Positions 2,006 through 13,026 of a DNA stretch of 24,081 bases are shown here, in pieces. The translations under genes were made by a program, and so were the position numbers. Origin of the DNA: a virus. How positions within the stretch are numbered: the stretch's first letter is position 1; every line of letters starts with the position of its first letter. The notes under the pieces were generated by a model. That model ran no database searches. It was not told the origin of the DNA and saw only the letters and a list, made by a program, of their open reading frames with translations. Location of the stretch: the IMG/VR virus record IMGVR_UViG_3300017758_000138, positions 1 to 24,081 of that record; one strand, written 5' to 3'.

Positions 2006-2332
2006 TCAGAAGTCGATGTCGATGCTGCTTGGAGCAGCAACAGCGGCCGGTTTGTTCTCGGGCTTATAGGGGCCGCTGAGCTTGCCTTTTAGCATCGGGC
2101 GAAACTCGCCGTTTCGGTTTTTGAACGTGCCGTTCCAGCCGGCGAGGCGTAGCCGAACAACAGTTTCATCCCGGTAGTTGGTCTCGCGGTCTGCGGTCTG
2201 CAGGTGATTAATCAGATCCGCGACATCCTCCTCCAAGACCTCGATTGATCCGGTGACGTCTGGGCTTTTCTCGGTGCGTTTTTCCTCCTCGAGAGTAGTG
2301 AACTGAGCAAATCCAATCGAAAAATCAGGCAT
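2006..2332 (-). CDS. Early protein with SSB-like acidic C-terminal tip (possible ssDNA-binding protein)
   Basis: This 108-residue protein has a compact N-terminal region (residues about 1-85: MPDFSIGFAQF, then SIEVLEEDVADLINHL and RLAGWNGTFKNRNGEFRPMLKGKLSG), a low-complexity Pro/Ala linker and the C-terminal tip SSIDIDF. A disordered linker ending in Asp residues and a final Phe is the hallmark of bacterial SSB and of T7 gp2.5 proteins, where the tip recruits partner proteins. It is the last gene of the leftward recombination operon, after Erf and RusA, which fits an ssDNA-binding role. I cannot recognise the fold by eye, so this is inference. The start overlaps the previous gene by 8 bases. 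Confidence 0.6.
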   Translation of the reverse strand: MPDFSIGFAQFTTLEEEKRTEKSPDVTGSIEVLEEDVADLINHLQTADRETNYRDETVVRLRLAGWNGTFKNRNGEFRPMLKGKLSGPYKPENKPAAVAAPSSIDIDF

Positions 2333-2510
2333 TGGTGTGTCCTTTAAAAAAGAGAGTAACGATGATCTTTAGCGCCTCATTGGCGCTGTAACTTCTGCTT
2401 TCCATGAAGTGATGGAGCATGGCGGCTGTATCGGAATCCAGCCGCACAGAGAACTGGTTGTTTCGCCGTTTGTCGTCGGAGAGCGCTTGCGGGGTCTTCT
2501 CACTGGTCAT
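2325..2510 (-). CDS. Ribbon-helix-helix-like DNA-binding protein (candidate regulator)
   Basis: The 61-residue product has a basic N-terminus (DDKRRNN) followed by a predicted strand QFSVRLD at about residues 19-25 and two helices (SDTAAMLHHFMESR and SANEALKIIVTLFFKG). Strand, helix, turn with a Ser-rich cap, helix is the Arc/MetJ-type ribbon-helix-helix layout, a dimeric fold that reads the major groove of short palindromes. The start overlaps the Erf stop as ATGA. It is a plausible binder of the repeated GGCGCGCC palindrome found in this region, but nothing in the sequence proves the pairing. Confidence 0.65.
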   Translation of the reverse strand: MTSEKTPQALSDDKRRNNQFSVRLDSDTAAMLHHFMESRSYSANEALKIIVTLFFKGHTNA

Positions 2511-3217
2511 TTCTTAGCTTGTTTTTTGATGAACTCGTTTTCGATCAGTTTCACCTGTTCCTCAATCCAATCTTTGTGCTTTTGCTTTTGGATGCCATCA
2601 GAAACTTTGACTGCGGTGATCTTGAACTGAGAGCGGAAAGACTCGCAGAGTTCTTTCTGAGCAGCTTTGTCGCCCATCCCGCCGTCTGCGGTGGCTTTTG
2701 CGATCTGCGCGATCATGCCGATGCACAGATCCTTTTCTTTTTGGGTGAGATCCTCTGAGACTTTGGCCGCGGTTGGCTCAGATTTGCCACTTCGAACTGG
2801 CGGGGCGGAGGGCTCCAGATCAGCATCGTTGTCTTCGATGCCAACGCAGAGGCCGAGCACAGCCTGCAAGGCGTAACGCCGGGTGTAAGTCATGGCTTTG
2901 CCCCACTCTTGGGTGCCGTTTTTTCCAGCGTTGATCGAGAGCGGCGTAACAGACGAGATCTGCTGACCGCTGACGTGCATCAACGTGGTGCGAAGCCCAG
3001 GGTCGCCGTCGATCTGCTCTGGAAGCTGCGAAACGGCGAGGCCGTTCGCCCGGAGAGCAGGGCCGATGGTGGAGAGGATGCCGGGCAGGTTGGCGAAACT
3101 GCCGTGATAGCTGTTGTCGTTGTCGTGGATAGTAGGGACAGCTTTCTGAAACTCAATGAGAGCAGCAGCGAGATCACTCAAGGGCTGTGACGGTGATAAT
3201 TGCACAGGGTCGTTCAT
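2507..3217 (-). CDS. erf: ERF-family single-strand annealing recombinase
   Basis: The product matches the ERF superfamily, which pairs complementary single strands during phage recombination and replication-fork repair. Residues 13-60 (LSDLAAALIEFQKAVPTIHDN..SYHGSFANLPGILSTIGPALRANGLAVSQ) and 101-123 (GTQEWGKAMTYTRRYALQAVLGL) are the two classic conserved blocks. The C-terminal third is a charged, mostly helical extension ending in KKQAKK. I chose ATG at 3217 (236 residues) because it limits the overlap with rusA to 44 bases; a start at 3274 would add 19 residues. Neighbours RusA and the SSB-like protein make a recombination module. Confidence 0.9.
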   Translation of the reverse strand: MNDPVQLSPSQPLSDLAAALIEFQKAVPTIHDNDNSYHGSFANLPGILSTIGPALRANGLAVSQLPEQIDGDPGLRTTLMHVSGQQISSVTPLSINAGKNGTQEWGKAMTYTRRYALQAVLGLCVGIEDNDADLEPSAPPVRSGKSEPTAAKVSEDLTQKEKDLCIGMIAQIAKATADGGMGDKAAQKELCESFRSQFKITAVKVSDGIQKQKHKDWIEEQVKLIENEFIKKQAKK

Positions 3218-3614: not shown

Positions 3615-4105
3615 TCAGGCTGACTTTCCTTTTTGGGGCGGCCGGGGCCGCGTTTGACTGGCTCCAGAGATGCGCGGTAGCGCTTTTCCGCTTCCTCTCG
3701 CGCAGCGGTGAGACTGTTGCAATGAGAGGAGGCTTCCTTCTGCAGCTTTTCCGCGAGGTGGACTTGCATCAGAACAGCCTTGCACTGCTCAACGCCCTGA
3801 TTCTTTATTAAATCGGCCGCGGCGTTGTACTGGCCGAACCAAACCTCACTGCTGTCAGGCGTGAGTCGTCTCAGCTGTTTGTCCAGCTCTCCGTCTTCTT
3901 CAACATCTTCGTGCTCCCATGCTTTTTCGACGCATAAGTCGAAAGCTAAAAGCAGGTGATTGATTTTACGCAGCTCATGCAGCACCTCCATTTTTGCGGA
4001 CCAAGCCGCTGAGTGCATTTTGTTATGACGCTCTTGGACGAGCTTGTAGCCGTCGTCGTTTTCAACGAACTCGCGCTGCAGTTTGTGATCGAGGGGCTGT
4101 GTCAT
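3611..4105 (-). CDS. Helical protein with C-terminal AT-hook motif, unknown function
   Basis: The 164-residue protein is highly charged and predicted mostly helical, with an acidic patch EHEDVEEDGE at about residues 64-73. The C-terminus carries KRGPGRPKKE at residues 151-160, containing the GRP core of an AT-hook, which binds the minor groove of AT-rich DNA. It therefore probably contacts DNA, perhaps as an accessory of replication or recombination, but I recognise no enzymatic domain. It is coupled at both ends: its start overlaps the stop of the upstream HTH gene, and its stop overlaps the start of rusA as ATGA. Confidence 0.75.
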   Translation of the reverse strand: MTQPLDHKLQREFVENDDGYKLVQERHNKMHSAAWSAKMEVLHELRKINHLLLAFDLCVEKAWEHEDVEEDGELDKQLRRLTPDSSEVWFGQYNAAADLIKNQGVEQCKAVLMQVHLAEKLQKEASSHCNSLTAAREEAEKRYRASLEPVKRGPGRPKKESQPE

Positions 4106-4434
4106 TTGGCGAAATAGATACGGGCAGTTCGACCGGATGAATTGACGCGCCGCTGGGGCTTGCCAGTTTTTTCATCTAGTCGAAACTCGAGAGGAGACGG
4201 GTGCATCTCCATCAGATCGCGGAGTCGAGCGCTTGCGGTCTGATGTTTCATTTCCAACAGTTGCTCGATTTGTTCGCACGTGAGCCCTAAACGGCACTCG
4301 CGGATTATTTCGAGAACATCTCGGCACATGCCGTTGATCTGAAAGCGGATGCTTTCAGCAGCGTCGCGACTGGTGTCGGTGCCGTTATGGGGTGCCGTTG
4401 GATGATTGAACAACGGCAGGTCGGCGTGATCCAT
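4102..4434 (-). CDS. Winged-helix/HTH-like DNA-binding protein
   Basis: The 110-residue product contains a recognisable helix-turn-helix region, LTCEQIEQLLEMKHQTASARLRDLME at about residues 50-75, followed by a wing-like segment with basic residues (GKPQRRVNSSGRTARIYF). This arrangement occurs in many small phage proteins near replication genes, where it serves in regulation or origin binding. An N-terminal stretch DTSRDAAESI resembles the start of other small phage HTH proteins. It is ATGA-coupled to the next gene and three bases downstream of the 54-residue gene. It is a second candidate reader of the GGCGCGCC palindromes. Confidence 0.7.
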   Translation of the reverse strand: MDHADLPLFNHPTAPHNGTDTSRDAAESIRFQINGMCRDVLEIIRECRLGLTCEQIEQLLEMKHQTASARLRDLMEMHPSPLEFRLDEKTGKPQRRVNSSGRTARIYFAK

Positions 4435-4638: not shown

Positions 4639-4667
4639 ACATTAGCTCTTATGGCGCGCCATGGCAA
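4639..4667 (-). promoter_or_regulatory. Sigma70-type promoter with embedded operator, leftward
   Basis: Read on the minus strand there is TTGCCA (4667-4662), a 17-base spacer and TAATGT (4644-4639). The spacer is filled by most of a perfect ATGGCGCGCCAT palindrome (4651-4662), so a protein bound there would block or remodel RNA polymerase. It drives the 54-residue gene and the recombination operon below it. The promoter is read by eye; the match of both boxes at ideal spacing is the evidence. Confidence 0.65.
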
Positions 4668-4906
4668 GCGAAGGAGGGGCGGTACATTCCCGCCGTTGCC
4701 TCCAGCTCATCCACTAGCTCGTCACGGACCTTGAATGATCCCCAGTGCCTGCCTGCCACTGATGCGATGGGAGGGCAGGTGATTTCAGCTGTAGGCCATT
4801 TATAACCGCATATTTTGCATTGACGCTTGCGGCTAATGACGTTTTTGCCTGTATGGCGCGACTCAAGGACGCAGATCAGCGTGGCGTTGCAGCTTGGGCA
4901 GTTCAT
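4649..4906 (-). CDS. NrdR-like zinc-ribbon protein, ATP-cone absent
   Basis: The 85-residue protein begins MNCPSCNATLICVLESRHTG and continues ISRKRQCKICGYKWPTAEI, giving Cys3, Cys6, Cys30 and Cys33 as a zinc ribbon. The spacing and the SR....ISRKRQC..CG.KW.T pattern closely follow the N-terminal zinc ribbon of the bacterial NrdR repressor, which binds DNA boxes upstream of ribonucleotide reductase genes. The ATP-cone domain that gives NrdR its nucleotide sensing is missing; instead there is a short helical C-terminus (DELVDELEATAGMYR). It may be a phage transcription factor, possibly acting on host or phage nucleotide genes. Its start overlaps the stop of the upstream nuclease gene (TAATG). 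Confidence 0.75.
   Translation of the reverse strand: MNCPSCNATLICVLESRHTGKNVISRKRQCKICGYKWPTAEITCPPIASVAGRHWGSFKVRDELVDELEATAGMYRPSFACHGAP
4651..4662. promoter_or_regulatory. Operator-like palindrome ATGGCGCGCCAT, copy 2
   Basis: Perfect 12-bp palindrome overlapping the end of the zinc-ribbon gene: its last codons and TAA stop (GAP and stop) are written in operator sequence. It abuts the -35 box TTGCCA on the minus strand. Confidence 0.75.
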
Positions 4907-5810: not shown

Positions 5811-6171
5811 AGATGACATTGAGCGGCGAGCCTACGAGCTGCTTCAGTGGGTGCCCTACGGGCTCCAATCCGAGTTTGATGACGAGCTAGCTCAGGCCGG
5901 CTACTACTCAAAAATGCAGCGGCAGCGTTCTAATGAAGCGCTCGACGCGTTTGATGCAGCCCATCCCTACCGGTCAAGCGACGAGCTGGCTGCGTTTCGG
6001 GAGTTAGAGCGCCTTCGCATCTATACCAATCACACCCTGTTTTCTCCCTCAAAAGCGAAGGATGGTTTTTACACCCGACGACTCAAAGAGCTACGTGCGC
6101 CCGGAGGCGCTCAACGATCACAGAGCCCTCCTCCGCGACGTTCAGCAGGCCGCCACCGCAGTCATCTCTGA
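5803..6171 (+). CDS. Protein of unknown function overlapping the replication ATPase gene
   Basis: The GTG at 5803 overlaps the previous stop and gives MTKDDIERRAYELLQWVPYGL; a TTG at 5776 would add nine residues. Residues about 1-85 look like real helical protein (DELAQAGYYSKMQRQRSNEALDAFDAAHPYR), but after about residue 86 the translation turns into Pro/Arg/Ser-rich shadow text (QRSQSPPPRRSAGRHRSHL) while the +1 frame becomes clearly coding. The 110-base overlap with the ATPase gene is unusual here. Either the two reading frames are separate genes with a long overlap, or they are joined by a +1 frameshift or an indel near 6055. Confidence 0.5.
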   Translation: MTKDDIERRAYELLQWVPYGLQSEFDDELAQAGYYSKMQRQRSNEALDAFDAAHPYRSSDELAAFRELERLRIYTNHTLFSPSKAKDGFYTRRLKELRAPGGAQRSQSPPPRRSAGRHRSHL

Positions 6172-7711
6172 TGAGCCTGATCAGTTTCTCCAAAGCCAGC
6201 GGCTGCGGCTCATGGCTGAGGAGCTGGGCTGTCCGATCAGTGAGCGAACTGCGGCGATATACCTAGCTCGCGCACGCGGCGAGATAAGCGGCGTGACTAT
6301 TCCTCGCATGAAAGGCGAGCGGATGGACACCACTCCTACGCCTTGGGCATGGGAGGGCGTAATCATGGCCGGGACATTCAATCTGCTGGTGGCCCCGCCA
6401 AAGGTTGGTAAATCTGCGCTGATGGTTGGCATGATCGGAGCTTGGTGGCGAGGCGATGCGACATACCTAGGCCAACCGCTACATGGTCCATGCCCCAAGG
6501 TTTTCATCGTTGGGACTGACCAACCAGAGAACGATTGGCACACGCTGTTTGAGCGGGAGGGCCTCGTGGCTGCGGATGGCGGGCTCGGCGGTCCGGTTGA
6601 GATGCTCTGGCATACCGGCGCGCCGCTTCATCTGACGGCCGAGGGCATCGCGCACCTCGGCTCCATCGCTGAGCAGCACCCCCGATCGCTGTTCCTCGTC
6701 GATAGCTACCACGCTTGCATCAGCCCGCTCGGAGTTGATGAGGCTACAAGTGCATTTGATGGCCCGGCCCGCGATCTCGCTCATGCCCTAGCGCCTCATC
6801 AAGCCACGCTGGCGATGATCCATCACACCAACAAATCAGTGGCGGGCGGCAACGCAACCAACGCCTCTCGAGGATCAAACGCCCTCCCGGCCGCGGCGAG
6901 CCTGACGATTCTGATGAACTGGTTCCGGCAGCCAGCCGAGGGCCAGACTCAGCAGGATCACCGCGTCATCTTAAAAACGCAGGGGCGGGCCAAAGGCTCG
7001 ACGCTGCTGATTGAGCTGCACGATGATGGCTGGATCCATCACGGCGATGGTGAGGCTGTGCTTCAGGGCGAGGCGCTGCAGGAGGCGGCGGACGATCTGC
7101 AGGGCCGATCGGCTGATGTTTTTGATTACATCAACGAGCGGTGGATGATTGGTCAGTTTCCTTGCACCGTTGCTGAGCTGGCGCGCCGATTCAACCTCGA
7201 GGCCAACAAAATGCACCGATGCCTCAGAACGCTCAATAGAAAGGGGCTGGTGCATCAGGTCGGGCAAGCAGATACCGGAGCAGAGGGTGGCCGCCCAGCG
7301 GCCTTGTTTGCGCCAATCAACCCCCTCCCCGCTGAAGGGCAGATAAACGTGATAAAGGTGAAAAACCCTGACGATGCTCTCACTCTCACGCACGCGCGCA
7401 CCCAGGAACTAAGAGGTTTATCACCTTTATCACGTTCTTATCGGGGTTCTGGGGGAGGGGAGGTTAATCACCCTGCCTCTGAGGGTTTATCACCTCTGTC
7501 TGATGGCGACCCTGTAGAGCGTTTTTGCGGCGGCGAGTGGAGCAACGGTTGGGTTGTACATGACGCCAGCAATCCGTTGTCGATCACGATCTCAAAGCTG
7601 GGCACGCCCACGATCCAGTTCAGGAATCAGCGGCCTGATCTGGACATCCGTTCCTGCCGGGGCTCTGCATTTCCGGCTCACCTAGATGGGGTGGATCCGT
7701 TCGATTTCTAG
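6062..7711 (+). CDS. RecA-like replication ATPase (RepA/AAA_25 type helicase) with C-terminal winged helix
   Basis: In this 549-residue protein the ATPase core shows Walker A APPKVGKSA (residues 111-119), a TDQPENDW segment (152-159), Walker B SLFLVDSYHA with Asp214, and a sensor-like MIHHTNKS (252-259). This pattern fits the RepA/AAA_25 branch of RecA-fold helicases, used by phages and plasmids as replicative helicase or loader. An N-terminal HTH-like stretch (LMAEELGCPISERTAAIYLARARG) precedes it, and a winged helix follows (CTVAELARRFNLEANKMHRCLRTLNRKGLV, about 368-397). Residues 429-478 form a low-complexity linker encoded by nested inverted repeats and iterons; a small C-terminal domain ends the chain. 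The ATG at 6062 has GAAGG immediately next to it, too close to be ideal, so the start is not secure. Confidence 0.82.
   Translation: MVFTPDDSKSYVRPEALNDHRALLRDVQQAATAVISDEPDQFLQSQRLRLMAEELGCPISERTAAIYLARARGEISGVTIPRMKGERMDTTPTPWAWEGVIMAGTFNLLVAPPKVGKSALMVGMIGAWWRGDATYLGQPLHGPCPKVFIVGTDQPENDWHTLFEREGLVAADGGLGGPVEMLWHTGAPLHLTAEGIAHLGSIAEQHPRSLFLVDSYHACISPLGVDEATSAFDGPARDLAHALAPHQATLAMIHHTNKSVAGGNATNASRGSNALPAAASLTILMNWFRQPAEGQTQQDHRVILKTQGRAKGSTLLIELHDDGWIHHGDGEAVLQGEALQEAADDLQGRSADVFDYINERWMIGQFPCTVAELARRFNLEANKMHRCLRTLNRKGLVHQVGQADTGAEGGRPAALFAPINPLPAEGQINVIKVKNPDDALTLTHARTQELRGLSPLSRSYRGSGGGEVNHPASEGLSPLSDGDPVERFCGGEWSNGWVVHDASNPLSITISKLGTPTIQFRNQRPDLDIRSCRGSAFPAHLDGVDPFDF
7322..7494. repeat. 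Nested inverted repeats and iteron-like repeats inside the replication gene (candidate origin)
   Basis: A 22-base arm at 7346-7367 pairs with 7415-7436 with one mismatch. An outer 9-base pair, CCCCTCCCC at 7322-7330 and GGGGAGGGG at 7452-7460, has exactly the same axis (7391). The unit TTTATCACC recurs: 7417-7425, 7426-7434 (last base G), 7464-7472 (TTAATCACC) and 7486-7494 on the plus strand, plus inverted copies around 7348-7363. A G-rich run (7443-7463) lies among them. Iterons inside a replication-protein gene recall the lambda O gene, whose linker encodes the origin. Origin function is inferred. Confidence 0.6.
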
Positions 7712-7754: not shown

Positions 7755-7775
7755 TAGCTGGAGACAGCTCTGTTC
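7755..7775 (+). promoter_or_regulatory. Leader hairpin carrying the ribosome binding site, copy A
   Basis: AGCTG-GAGA-CAGCT (7756-7769) is a 5-bp stem with a GAGA tetraloop of the stable GNRA class. The Shine-Dalgarno sequence GGAG spans the stem-loop border, and CTGTTC leads directly into the ATG at 7776. The 20 bases before the start codon are identical to those before the gene at 8117. Confidence 0.75.
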
Positions 7776-8009
7776 ATGATCAAATTTCAAAAAACAGGCG
7801 TGTTTTACGCGCCAGAGCTGCCCCGAGGCCCGTTCGCCGATGGCTGCAACGACGCCAGCTTTTCCTCGCCTGAGGAGGCCGCCGATCGTTACCCCGGCTG
7901 GAGGATTCGTGAATTCACCTGTTGGGGCACGCAGCCAGGCGATATCCACAACATCGAGCTATCAGGATTGGTGACCGTTTATAGCCCGGCCCCTGCCTAC
8001 ACACTCTGA
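7776..8009 (+). CDS. Small protein of unknown function behind operator-promoter 3
   Basis: The 77-residue product MIKFQKTGVFYAPELPRGPF has no recognised domain. It is a mixed alpha/beta composition with several aromatic residues (YPGWRIREFTCWG, then LSGLVTVYSPAPAY), suggesting a small folded beta-rich protein. It has its own promoter with an embedded palindrome and the duplicated leader hairpin, and it is followed by a strong GC hairpin, so it looks like a single-gene unit under regulated early expression, perhaps a host-takeover or anti-defence protein; that role is speculation. Confidence 0.65.
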   Translation: MIKFQKTGVFYAPELPRGPFADGCNDASFSSPEEAADRYPGWRIREFTCWGTQPGDIHNIELSGLVTVYSPAPAYTL

Positions 8010-8095: not shown

Positions 8096-8116
8096 CAGCT
8101 GGAGACAGCTCTGTTC
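8096..8116 (+). promoter_or_regulatory. Leader hairpin carrying the ribosome binding site, copy B
   Basis: The same AGCTG-GAGA-CAGCT hairpin (8097-8110) plus CTGTTC that precedes the gene at 7776 is found directly before the ATG at 8117. This fixes the start at 8117 rather than at the upstream in-frame ATG at 8033, which would read through the promoter. Confidence 0.75.
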
Positions 8117-8350
8117 ATGGATTATCACCACGCCTCACTCGCTCTCCAAGAATGGCTTGAGGAGCAACAGCCCCAAGACCAACAGCCTGAGCTGGCCTAC
8201 TACTGCGAAGCCATCAACCCCGCTACCAACGAGGTGATCTGGGACGACTTGCTCTACACCGATGAGCAGCGCACCAAACGCCTCGAAGAGGCTGCTGCTG
8301 CTGGACTCACCCTGACCATCGAGGCAACCCCCGACGAGATCTGGGCATGA
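8117..8350 (+). CDS. Small acidic protein of unknown function, first gene of an accessory operon
   Basis: The 77-residue product MDYHHASLALQEWLEEQQPQDQQPELAYYCEA is acidic and rich in Gln and Glu, with no domain recognised. The start is set by the duplicated leader hairpin immediately upstream. It is coupled to the next gene by ATGA at 8347, and the following genes through 9393 are close-packed, suggesting one operon controlled by the palindrome at 8040. Confidence 0.65.
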   Translation: MDYHHASLALQEWLEEQQPQDQQPELAYYCEAINPATNEVIWDDLLYTDEQRTKRLEEAAAAGLTLTIEATPDEIWA

Positions 8351-10214: not shown

Positions 10215-10329
10215 TCTGGTTGGCTTTGTTGACTCCCAACATCTGATAAATGCAAAAACTTTGCAGCTGCAGGTAACGTGGCGTCAGCGAAACAATCCTT
10301 GTGGATTCAATCAACAGCCTGAAGTCTGA
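10132..10329 (+). CDS. Small protein of unknown function, start uncertain
   Basis: The frame from ATG 10132 gives 65 residues (MNADFETPTPNPKIRVLNTGVIRIQIDDLVGFVD and onward). The central part looks like folded beta-rich protein, but the first 28 codons overlap the preceding gene by 83 bases; a GTG at 10177 would cut the overlap. It also overlaps the methylase gene start by 29 bases. It fills the 86-base space between two firm genes, which argues that something is encoded here. Confidence 0.45.
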   Translation: MNADFETPTPNPKIRVLNTGVIRIQIDDLVGFVDSQHLINAKTLQLQVTWRQRNNPCGFNQQPEV

Positions 10330-11869
10330 TCATAAAAATGCACGGAAACGCACAGATCGATCCTCTGAACTAATCAAAGAGTCCCTACAGCGCTACGGCG
10401 CCGCTCGCTCCATCGTTATCGACGAAGAAAATCGCATCCTTGCCGGCAACGGCACTGTCGAGGGCGCTAAGGCTGCAGGCATCAGCAACATTCGAGTTAT
10501 CGAAACAGAGGGCGACGAAATCATCGCGGTGCGCCGCACTGGTTTATCCGAGGAGCAAAAAGTCGGCCTCGCCCTCGCTGATAACCGCACGTCTGATCTC
10601 TCTACCTGGGATCAGGAGATGTTGAACCGCCTCTCTGATGAGCATGACATCAGCCCTTGGTTCTCCGATGCAGATCTAACCGGCCTCGCAGAGGCGGAAG
10701 ACCTCGCGGCGTTTGATGAGGCTATTGACGATTCGATTGAGGCAGAAACAGCCCAGCCCGGCGCAAAGCTTGCAGATCGTTTCGGCATTGCTCCGTTCTC
10801 AATCCTCAACGCTCGTGAGGGTTGGTGGCAGGAGCGCAAACGACAGTGGCTGGATCTCGGCATCCAGTCAGAGGTCGGTCGAGAGGGCAATCTCCTCGGC
10901 ATGTCCGAGACAGTGCTTCAGCCTGATGAGCAGTTGCGCCAGCTAAAGGAGGCCCTGCAGGCTGGAGGCGGCGCAGGCTACGGCGGCATCAACGCCAAAA
11001 TCCCCGGCTACTACCAAAAGAAAAACGCAGGCATGAGCGACGAGCAAATCGTCGCCGAGTTCCTCGACTCTGGCTCTCAGATCGGTGCAGGCACCTCGAT
11101 TTTCGACCCTGTCCTGGCTGAGCTGGCTTACCGCTGGTTCTCTCCCCCAGATGGCGTCATCCTCGATCCGTTCGCTGGCGGATCAGTCCGCGGCATCGTT
11201 GCCCTGAAATCAGGTCGGCAGTACATCGGCTGCGATCTTCGGGCTGAACAGGTCGAAGCCAACCGCGCCCAGGGCGCAGAGATCACCCCGGACAACCCGC
11301 CGATTTGGTACTGCAGCGACTCCCGCAACATCGACCGGGTTTGCGAGGGCCTGCAGGCCGACATGATCTTCTCCTGTCCTCCCTACGCAGATCTCGAGGT
11401 TTACAGCGACGATCCAAAGGATTTGTCCACCCTCCCCTATGACCAGTTCGTTGAGAGCTACCGGGAAATTATTGCTAAATCCTGCAGCCTCCTGAAAGAC
11501 AACGCCTTCGCCTGTTTCATCGTTGGCGACGTACGCGACAAAAAGGGCAACTATTACAACTTTGTTGGCGACACCATCAAAGCGTTCACCGATGCAGGGC
11601 TCAGCTACTACAACGAGGCGATCCTCATCACTCCCGTCGGCACCCTGCCGATCAGGGCCGGCCGCACGTTTGCTAGCACCCGCAAGCTGGGCAAAACCCA
11701 CCAGAACGTTCTCGTGTTCCTCAAAGGCGATGCCCGCAAAGCCGTGGCCGCTTGCGGCGAATGCGATTTCGCAGAGGTCGAAGAGCAGCCCGCAGAGCAC
11801 GGCCCCGTAGCTGAGAGCACTGAGTACGGCGAGAAACTGACCGCTGATTCCATCGGAGGTGAGCTTTGA
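10301..11869 (+). CDS. ParB-like domain fused to DNA methyltransferase
   Basis: The 522-residue product begins at GTG 10301 with a ParB/sulfiredoxin-like domain (about residues 20-105; the conserved core is RILAGNGTVEGAKAAG at 46-61), a fold used for DNA binding or nucleotide hydrolysis. A spacer containing ILNAREGWWQERKRQWLDLG (168-187) follows, a block typical of phage proteins of this architecture. The methylase domain shows the S-adenosylmethionine motif DPFAGGS (289-295) and the catalytic motif SCPPY (358-362), which belongs to the amino-methyltransferases that make N6-methyladenine or N4-methylcytosine. It probably modifies phage DNA to avoid host restriction. It is coupled to the next gene by a TTGA overlap. 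Confidence 0.88.
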   Translation: MDSINSLKSDHKNARKRTDRSSELIKESLQRYGAARSIVIDEENRILAGNGTVEGAKAAGISNIRVIETEGDEIIAVRRTGLSEEQKVGLALADNRTSDLSTWDQEMLNRLSDEHDISPWFSDADLTGLAEAEDLAAFDEAIDDSIEAETAQPGAKLADRFGIAPFSILNAREGWWQERKRQWLDLGIQSEVGREGNLLGMSETVLQPDEQLRQLKEALQAGGGAGYGGINAKIPGYYQKKNAGMSDEQIVAEFLDSGSQIGAGTSIFDPVLAELAYRWFSPPDGVILDPFAGGSVRGIVALKSGRQYIGCDLRAEQVEANRAQGAEITPDNPPIWYCSDSRNIDRVCEGLQADMIFSCPPYADLEVYSDDPKDLSTLPYDQFVESYREIIAKSCSLLKDNAFACFIVGDVRDKKGNYYNFVGDTIKAFTDAGLSYYNEAILITPVGTLPIRAGRTFASTRKLGKTHQNVLVFLKGDARKAVAACGECDFAEVEEQPAEHGPVAESTEYGEKLTADSIGGEL

Positions 11870-13026
11870 GCGATGCACCGGCTTGGGCGCTTGGTTACGA
11901 CCTCGCGTTCCTAAAACAGCTCGCCGTAGTTTTTGCTCGCGATTTCAAGCCGCACTGCTACGGAGCGTTCGGCCTGCCAAAAGAACGCGACATCGCTACC
12001 GCGATGAAAGAGGGTCAGTTGGCTTGGACTCGCTCACCTGACACTAACGAGATTGCAGCCGTTGCAATGTTCCGCGTCGCCAAGGTTGCCAGCTCTCAGA
12101 GCGACTTCGCTCAGCGGCCGATCAGCATCCACAAAGGTGATCTGCAGATTCGCGCCCTCGCTGGCAACCCTGCAGATCTCAGCAGGCTTGTCACCAAACT
12201 GATGGACAAAGCCGGCCCACGGCCTGTCTGGATTGAGCTGCACGAGGAGAACCGCCAGATCAGAGATGTCGCGATCAGCCTCGGTTTTAAATCAGTGGCA
12301 ACCAAGGTAACTGCATCGTCTGACATCAAAACGCTCTACATCCATGGGGTAGCCAACCCAACGGCTCGCGTTCAAGGTGGCCTCTACTCCTCAGACATTC
12401 CGGCACTGAAACTCCTGGGATGCGGGGCGATGCCTGGCGAGATTCAGGCGTGCCTCGAAGAAATCTCTGCGTTCAATCCGGCATGGGAGCAGCACTACAG
12501 CTCGTACAACAAACGCAAAAGCTGGACAGCTATCGCCCTACAGGGTTTCGATCCCTCTGATCCTGGGTTCATTATCAAACCGGGAGAGATGAGCAAAGGC
12601 TGGAAACAGGACAATCCCGAGCGGCTTAAGGCTGCCTGCGCTCCAACCATCGCTGCAATGGCACTACCTACGATTTGGCGCCTGGCAAAATCCATCCCAG
12701 GCAAACTCGAGCGGGTTCGGCTGATGCGCCTTCGTGCATCAAATGGCGAACTAACTCGTCATGCCGACATCACAGATCGAGATGCGGGCACCGCAGACGG
12801 CAGGATCGCCCGCTTGCACATCCCCCTGCGAACAGCAAAAGGCTGTGAGTTTTCAAGCTGGGAGCTGTCAGGTGATCGCACTCGTTTGCATTTCCCAGCC
12901 GGCGCATTGTTTTACCTCGATATCCGAAAGCCCCACGCGGTTAAAAACACCAGCGACTGCGATCGGATTCACCTTGTTGTTGATGTCGCCTGCAACTCTC
13001 AAGTCAGGAGGTTGATCGATGCCTGA
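11866..13026 (+). CDS. GNAT-like domain fused to Asp/Asn-hydroxylase-type 2-oxoglutarate oxygenase
   Basis: The start is a TTG at 11866 overlapping the methylase stop and backed by a near-perfect Shine-Dalgarno GGAGGTGA at 11855-11862. Residues about 10-160 resemble a GNAT acyltransferase fold, ending in IELHEENRQIRDVAISLGFKSVATKVTASSDIKTLYIH, the usual helix plus GF turn of that fold. Residues about 225-375 resemble the aspartyl/asparaginyl beta-hydroxylase family: RHADITD gives the iron ligands His299 and Asp301, KPHAVKN supplies His357, and Arg367 (DRIHLVVDV) could hold 2-oxoglutarate. The fusion is unusual. Its position between a DNA methylase and a PLP-type protein suggests modification of DNA bases or of an amino acid precursor. 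The GNAT assignment is the weaker one. Confidence 0.7.
   Translation: MSDAPAWALGYDLAFLKQLAVVFARDFKPHCYGAFGLPKERDIATAMKEGQLAWTRSPDTNEIAAVAMFRVAKVASSQSDFAQRPISIHKGDLQIRALAGNPADLSRLVTKLMDKAGPRPVWIELHEENRQIRDVAISLGFKSVATKVTASSDIKTLYIHGVANPTARVQGGLYSSDIPALKLLGCGAMPGEIQACLEEISAFNPAWEQHYSSYNKRKSWTAIALQGFDPSDPGFIIKPGEMSKGWKQDNPERLKAACAPTIAAMALPTIWRLAKSIPGKLERVRLMRLRASNGELTRHADITDRDAGTADGRIARLHIPLRTAKGCEFSSWELSGDRTRLHFPAGALFYLDIRKPHAVKNTSDCDRIHLVVDVACNSQVRRLIDA

Follow-up and report, generated by a model that had tools for sequence, protein, structure and literature searches.

In RSF1010 the iterons are served by a separate initiator, RepC, alongside a separate primase, and in lambda the P protein recruits the host DnaB. 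The lambda origin comprises four 19-bp direct repeats and an AT-rich arm inside gene O, whose product binds through its N-terminal half (PMC4488673), and replication specificity is exchanged along with the genes in lambda/P22 hybrids (PMC3349717). The SaPI Rep and SCCmec Cch2 proteins, both self-loading helicases, use their C-terminal domain to recognise an iteron origin adjacent to their own gene (PMC7581432). For the marine cyanophage group considered here we found no report of a replication origin in the literature searched, and our literature search on cyanophage iterons gave only a paper on the PLE satellites. Here we describe a segment of a 24,081-base IMG/VR virus record (hereafter the window, meaning this whole stretch of DNA) from a cyanosiphovirus akin to S-CBS1 and S-CBS3. 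Judged from its sequence, the segment is probably an iteron-type origin that lies inside the gene for its own initiator-helicase and is recognised by that protein's winged helix.

That gene (6062-7711, plus strand) encodes a 549-aa RepA-like initiator-helicase, identified through Pfam, PHROG and similarity to S-CBS3 gp45. The protein matches AAA_25 (E 3.2e-11, above the curated cut-off) and LexA_DNA_bind (E 8e-7) in Pfam and is assigned to PHROG_30286 (E 3e-183); its annotated relatives are S-CBS3 gp45 (51% identical, annotated 'putative hexameric replicative helicase RepA') and S-CBS1 gp41 (42% identical). The AAA_25 ATPase domain (aa 90-259; 6329-6838, plus strand; Pfam), whose Walker A motif PPKVGKS is invariant or nearly so among 35 homologues, is followed on its C-terminal side, in Pfam as in the structural model, by a winged helix (aa 345-402; 7094-7267, plus strand; Pfam, model and Foldseek) with the recognition helix EANKMHRCL, then by a disordered linker and a small C-terminal beta domain (aa 484-531; 7511-7654, plus strand; model). 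The winged helix forms half of the swappable cassette described below, and the beta domain follows the ATPase, not the cassette, in its evolution. The AlphaFold2 model of the protein is of modest to low confidence overall (mean pLDDT 63), and the linker residues that encode the repeat units (aa 423-477) fall below a pLDDT of 50 and are predicted to be disordered. Foldseek likens the winged helix to the MarR/ArsR type and gives RSF1010 RepA (1g8y) as a weak match for the ATPase (probability 0.91, E 0.05), with none at E ≤ 0.001. Elsewhere in the window, a 110-aa protein (4102-4434, minus strand) matches phrog_1123, a family with a weak match to the helicase's winged helix as well; this protein is possibly a stand-alone relative of the helicase's binding domain.

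All of the repeat units lie inside the 6062-7711 reading frame. The inverted repeat, outer repeat, shared axis, both-strand units and G-rich run that the first-pass annotation had described were all found where it had placed them, and the repeats are real and stronger than its reader could see. The inner arms (7346-7367 and 7415-7436) are complementary at 21 of 22 positions and separated by 47 nt; like them, the outer 9-mers CCCCTCCCC (7322-7330) and GGGGAGGGG (7452-7460) are centred on an axis at 7391, and on either side 15 nt separate the outer arm from the inner one. The inner repeat resolves into three tandem 9-bp units per direction, forming two opposed arrays, each delimited by sequence, unit search and homologues: a reverse array on the minus strand (7339-7365; from 7365 down, R1 TTTTTCACC, R2 TTTATCACG and R3 TTTATCTGC) and a forward array on the plus strand (7417-7443; F1 TTTATCACC, F2 TTTATCACG and F3 TTCTTATCG). 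Between them lies a spacer, 51 nt long here (7366-7416; homologues and synonymous constraint), in which an alternating purine-pyrimidine tract (CACGCACGCGCGCAC, 7387-7401; homologue comparison) spans the axis. The outer arm CCCCTCCCC is a plus-strand pyrimidine tract that is common among homologues but not universal, and its counterpart GGGGAGGGG is contained in a plus-strand G-rich run (GGGGGAGGGGAG, 7451-7462), both being read from the sequence. Two extra forward units follow on the plus strand, F4 TTAATCACC (7464-7472) and F5 TTTATCACC (7486-7494), both found by unit search and in homologues. With up to one mismatch allowed, the window holds 14 copies of TTTATCACC, where 2.97 would be expected and 100 shuffles gave at most 8; six of these matches fall at 7348-7494, whereas every other 200-bp stretch of the window holds at most one. 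Scored for 9-mer self-similarity, the linker reaches 40, vs. 17 (maximum 23) in codon-shuffled linkers.

Across 36 non-redundant homologues (IMG/VR, S-CBS1 and S-CBS3), the reverse and forward arrays stand at the same codon positions and in the same register, while the sequence of the units is lineage-specific. The layout is kept with other units in distant homologues at 51-58% identity (e.g. TTTATCACG and TTTAACACA) and persists down to 37-42% protein identity, including L308, a relative at 37%; the units cluster nowhere else in the loci tested. The spacer measures 28 nt in the majority of homologues, against 51 nt in the clade of the window, and most homologues carry an extra forward unit, usually 19-21 or 28-30 nt past F3, two distances that differ by about one helical turn. 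Within-phage unit identity exceeds between-phage identity for 15 of 15 slot pairs (z 4.5-9), reverse-versus-forward pairs included. Since the two arrays are read oppositely and encode different residues, a repeated protein motif cannot explain the units. What is conserved is the set of units and not a hairpin, with a unit sequence that is lineage-specific and not a fixed TTTATCACC.

We compared codons with an unchanged amino acid in 155 non-independent pairs of relatives (80-98.5% identical). Synonymous differences are few in the reverse array (0.061), the spacer (0.060) and the forward array (0.042), compared with 0.21 in the G-run segment and 0.26-0.32 in the remaining parts of the gene (N-terminus, ATPase, winged helix, upstream linker and C-terminus); synonymous change is suppressed about sixfold in the arrays and spacer, and in the arrays it lies below that of the ATPase in 154 of the 155 non-independent pairs. 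Amino-acid differences run the other way, at 0.17-0.34 in the arrays and spacer vs. 0.05 in the ATPase (3-7x). Both of the expectations that had been attached to these repeats are borne out: the architecture persists while the linker residues vary, and it is the DNA rather than the linker protein that is selected, with synonymous change falling from about 0.30 to 0.04-0.06 as amino-acid change rises. The alternating purine-pyrimidine tract has a mean length of 11.4 nt in homologues vs. 6.8 nt in synonymous recodings. We do not claim a Z-DNA reading of the spacer, since the tract is missing in some homologues (e.g. L021) and the Z-alpha matches returned by Foldseek are generic winged-helix matches.

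The units track the winged helix and no other folded part of the protein. Unit distance correlates with the distance between winged helices (aa 366-402) at r = 0.77 and with that of the adjoining aa 403-422 at r = 0.68, vs. r between -0.04 and 0.09 for any window of aa 1-344 and r = 0.02 for aa 486-549. Thinning to proteins below 88% identity leaves the winged helix at r = 0.76 and the flanks at -0.19 to 0.01, and the partial Mantel correlation with the ATPase controlled is r = 0.80 (P = 0.0005). Recognition-helix motifs pair consistently with units, in a few lineages rather than in many independent events: LEANK[MIV]H with TTT[AT]TCACC, LERNKTH with TTTGTCACC, LERNKTS with TTTGNCACC, CN.SK[VI]N with TTATTCCCC, CN.[ST]KVL with T[AT]TTACCCC, and [VI]DRNK[VI]N with TTTAACCCC. 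Within the CN.[ST]K group, the position after KV (385) is N with TTC/TTT units and L with TAC units; a universal one-residue code at position 385 is clear within this group but fails across groups, and we rejected it.

Because the units track the winged helix and not the ATPase or C-terminal domain, we read the winged helix and repeats as a single cassette, which by sequence comparison is exchanged between phages as a block through recombination inside the gene. In the pair L016/L041, DNA identity is 0.88-1.0 up to nt 1020, 0.38-0.47 at 1080-1380 and 0.82-0.90 beyond (overall, ~90% outside the cassette and ~43% inside); in L060/L077, the N-terminal and ATPase regions are 90-97% identical and the C-termini 100%, vs. 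38% for the winged helix. The earlier suggestion that the winged helix could bind the units gains from this covariation: a binding specificity of the winged helix for the units is strongly supported by the sequence comparisons, and we infer from it that the two probably make physical contact.

Part of the covariation could, however, be physical linkage within the exchanged block. Taken to its limit, this would mean that the winged helix and linker, which lie within ~130 codons and are exchanged together, are swapped through recombination-prone borders and involve no binding at all, and the neighbouring minus-strand genes for Erf, RusA and an exonuclease would favour such recombination. We nonetheless consider hitch-hiking of this kind highly improbable, because it leaves unexplained both the synonymous constraint and the presence of some six units in both orientations with one lineage-specific sequence per phage, and because protein segments that flank the block equally closely have r of about 0; so sharp a drop in correlation to either side speaks for function, without proving it. 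Slimmer still is the chance that the inverted repeat works at the RNA level, as a hairpin or attenuator of the helicase message, or else as a DNA cruciform. The 21/22 arms of the window do fold into a long stem (-39 kcal/mol), but folding z-scores for the window and four homologues (-0.25 to -1.7) are close to those of shuffles, Rfam gave no match, and the extra forward units are kept despite having no partner. Nor does the conservation follow pairing in register: R3 is closer to F1 (0.83) than to F3 (0.62), with which it would have to pair, and R2 is also closer to F1 than to F2. We rejected the hairpin on these four grounds.

Binding of the units by the winged helix would also be compatible with a site that is an operator, or one for copy-number or incompatibility control, through which the initiator represses itself or is titrated. 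Plasmid iterons serve both origin and copy-number/incompatibility roles, the winged helix is of the MarR/ArsR type, and covariation and constraint would look identical under such control. Against this, the array lies ~1.3 kb downstream of the gene start, the units are not clustered near the divergent promoter region, there is no good promoter at the array, and the binding domain shares a polypeptide with a replicative-type ATPase; we therefore regard a purely regulatory site as unlikely, though it is the least improbable of the three alternatives. We favour an origin at the array because the ATPase is fused, relatives are annotated as RepA and such arrays generally behave in this way; origin activity at the units is thus a prediction drawn from these three considerations. 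Cumulative GC skew, proposed in the first-pass annotation as a check for an origin near 7400, did not single out 7.4 kb: among nine related records and the window, the peak is near the repeats but in most cases lies 2-6 kb upstream of them. Gene orientation changes there as well, so that the skew is confounded and does not place the origin.

If the array is an origin, it would be one embedded in the part of the initiator-helicase gene that encodes the disordered linker, with the C-terminal winged helix of the RepA-like protein binding the 9-bp units. The two opposed three-unit arrays would then place the AAA_25 helicase head-to-head, flanking a short flexible spacer, with assistance from the outlying units 19-42 bp past the forward array; the opposed arrays suggest either two helicases set head-to-head or one hexamer reading six units. 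Unwinding may begin at or beside the spacer or the G-rich run, and the helicase may load there with no or few other loaders. Head-to-head loading, self-loading and the place of strand opening are all putative steps. There is no AT-rich unwinding element of the classical type and no AT-rich stretch: mean AT in 15-bp bins climbs to no more than 0.55-0.61, just right of the axis. The winged helix and its units would together constitute a compatibility cassette, swapped as a block among phages. Somewhat further, and tentatively, we propose that in these cyanosiphoviruses initiator and helicase are one protein, that its winged helix and the intragenic origin make up an exchangeable compatibility cassette of which at least six unit types exist, and that selection against cross-recognition (by co-infecting relatives, satellites or origin-targeting nucleases) has diversified it. 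In place of an AT-rich element, a flexible spacer of alternating purines and pyrimidines may be where this helicase loads itself, head-to-head.

We scanned IMG/VR with two-unit patterns for satellites that carry the units but not the gene; most matches look collagen-like, and the scans did yield two distant relatives (L308 and L355). The contig scan comes down to a single metagenome-assembled contig (L100). Collagen-like Gly-Asp-Lys repeat genes (L202, L365, L387 and others) carry long TTTGTCACC arrays on the opposite strand; these (Gly-Asp-Lys)n genes mimic iterons because their reverse complement reads TTTGTCACC, and are a trap for iteron searches. In a phage outside this family, clustered and partly opposed TTTGACACC-type units (L265 ~1940-2100; L181 ~680-830) lie at the 3' end of a reading frame (2052-2771, minus strand), beside a frame with the Walker A motif GPSKAGKS; this arrangement is possibly an independent case of the same organisation.

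Several other features of the window were recorded. An identical 23-nt leader, AGCTGGAGACAGCTCTGTTCATG, precedes two consecutive small genes (7756-7778 and 8097-8119); it contains a 5-bp stem with a GAGA loop, ending 6 nt upstream of the start codon. The closest relatives (L001-L005) have one or two copies of this leader and the other distinct loci have none; it is possibly a translational control element. Positions 10301-11869 encode a DNA methyltransferase fused to a ParB-like nuclease/partition domain, and 11866-13026 a 386-aa phage protein with a C-terminal aspartyl/asparaginyl beta-hydroxylase domain. An 85-aa protein (4649-4906, minus strand) has as its sole Pfam match an NrdR-type zinc ribbon, without the ATP-cone.

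Candidate origin coordinates are now precise for a large set of uncultured phages as well as for S-CBS1 and S-CBS3, and the start-site code of these cyanobacteria-infecting ocean viruses becomes directly testable. For S-CBS3, which infects Synechococcus CB0202, the candidate origin is predicted at about 31.6 kb on its record. In the homologues, recognition helices and 9-bp units form a natural set of matched protein-DNA specificity pairs, which could serve to derive a recognition code. It can also be tested whether phages swap origin specificity to escape interference from relatives or parasites, as proposed for the PLE satellites.

Lambda O, to which the first-pass annotation had likened this gene, remains a good analogue in location and logic, the iterons in both being part of the gene for the initiator protein by which they are bound or, here, predicted to be bound (PMC4488673). 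The analogy does not extend to homology, the 549-aa protein having no O-family match in Pfam or PHROGs, nor to an AT-rich arm of the lambda type: here the units are 9 bp long and set in two opposed arrays, and the DNA-binding domain is a C-terminal winged helix fused to the helicase in the same protein. SaPI Rep and Cch2 likewise carry, C-terminal to the ATPase, a DNA-binding domain of the kind predicted here to recognise iterons (PMC7581432), but their ATPase is of the DUF927 or D5-type primase-helicase kind (D5/Primase_Cterm) rather than AAA_25, and their origin lies directly downstream of the gene rather than inside it. As in the RepA of the Vibrio cholerae PLE satellites, only the DNA-binding domain covaries and swaps with the origin (PMC8263062); the PLE origin, however, is intergenic and has three roughly 30-bp semi-palindromic repeats in place of intragenic 9-bp units, PLE RepA has an N-terminal RepA_N domain with no fused helicase described there in place of a C-terminal winged helix and helicase, and the few PLE variants compare with many lineages here. 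With RSF1010 RepA this protein shares a RepA/AAA_25-type ATPase, its S-CBS3 homologue carries a RepA annotation and Foldseek gives 1g8y as a weak match, but the RSF1010 initiator is separate from the helicase and here the two are fused. As far as these sources tell, this locus is set apart from each of the systems compared by joining an AAA_25 helicase and a C-terminal winged helix to an opposed array inside the gene.
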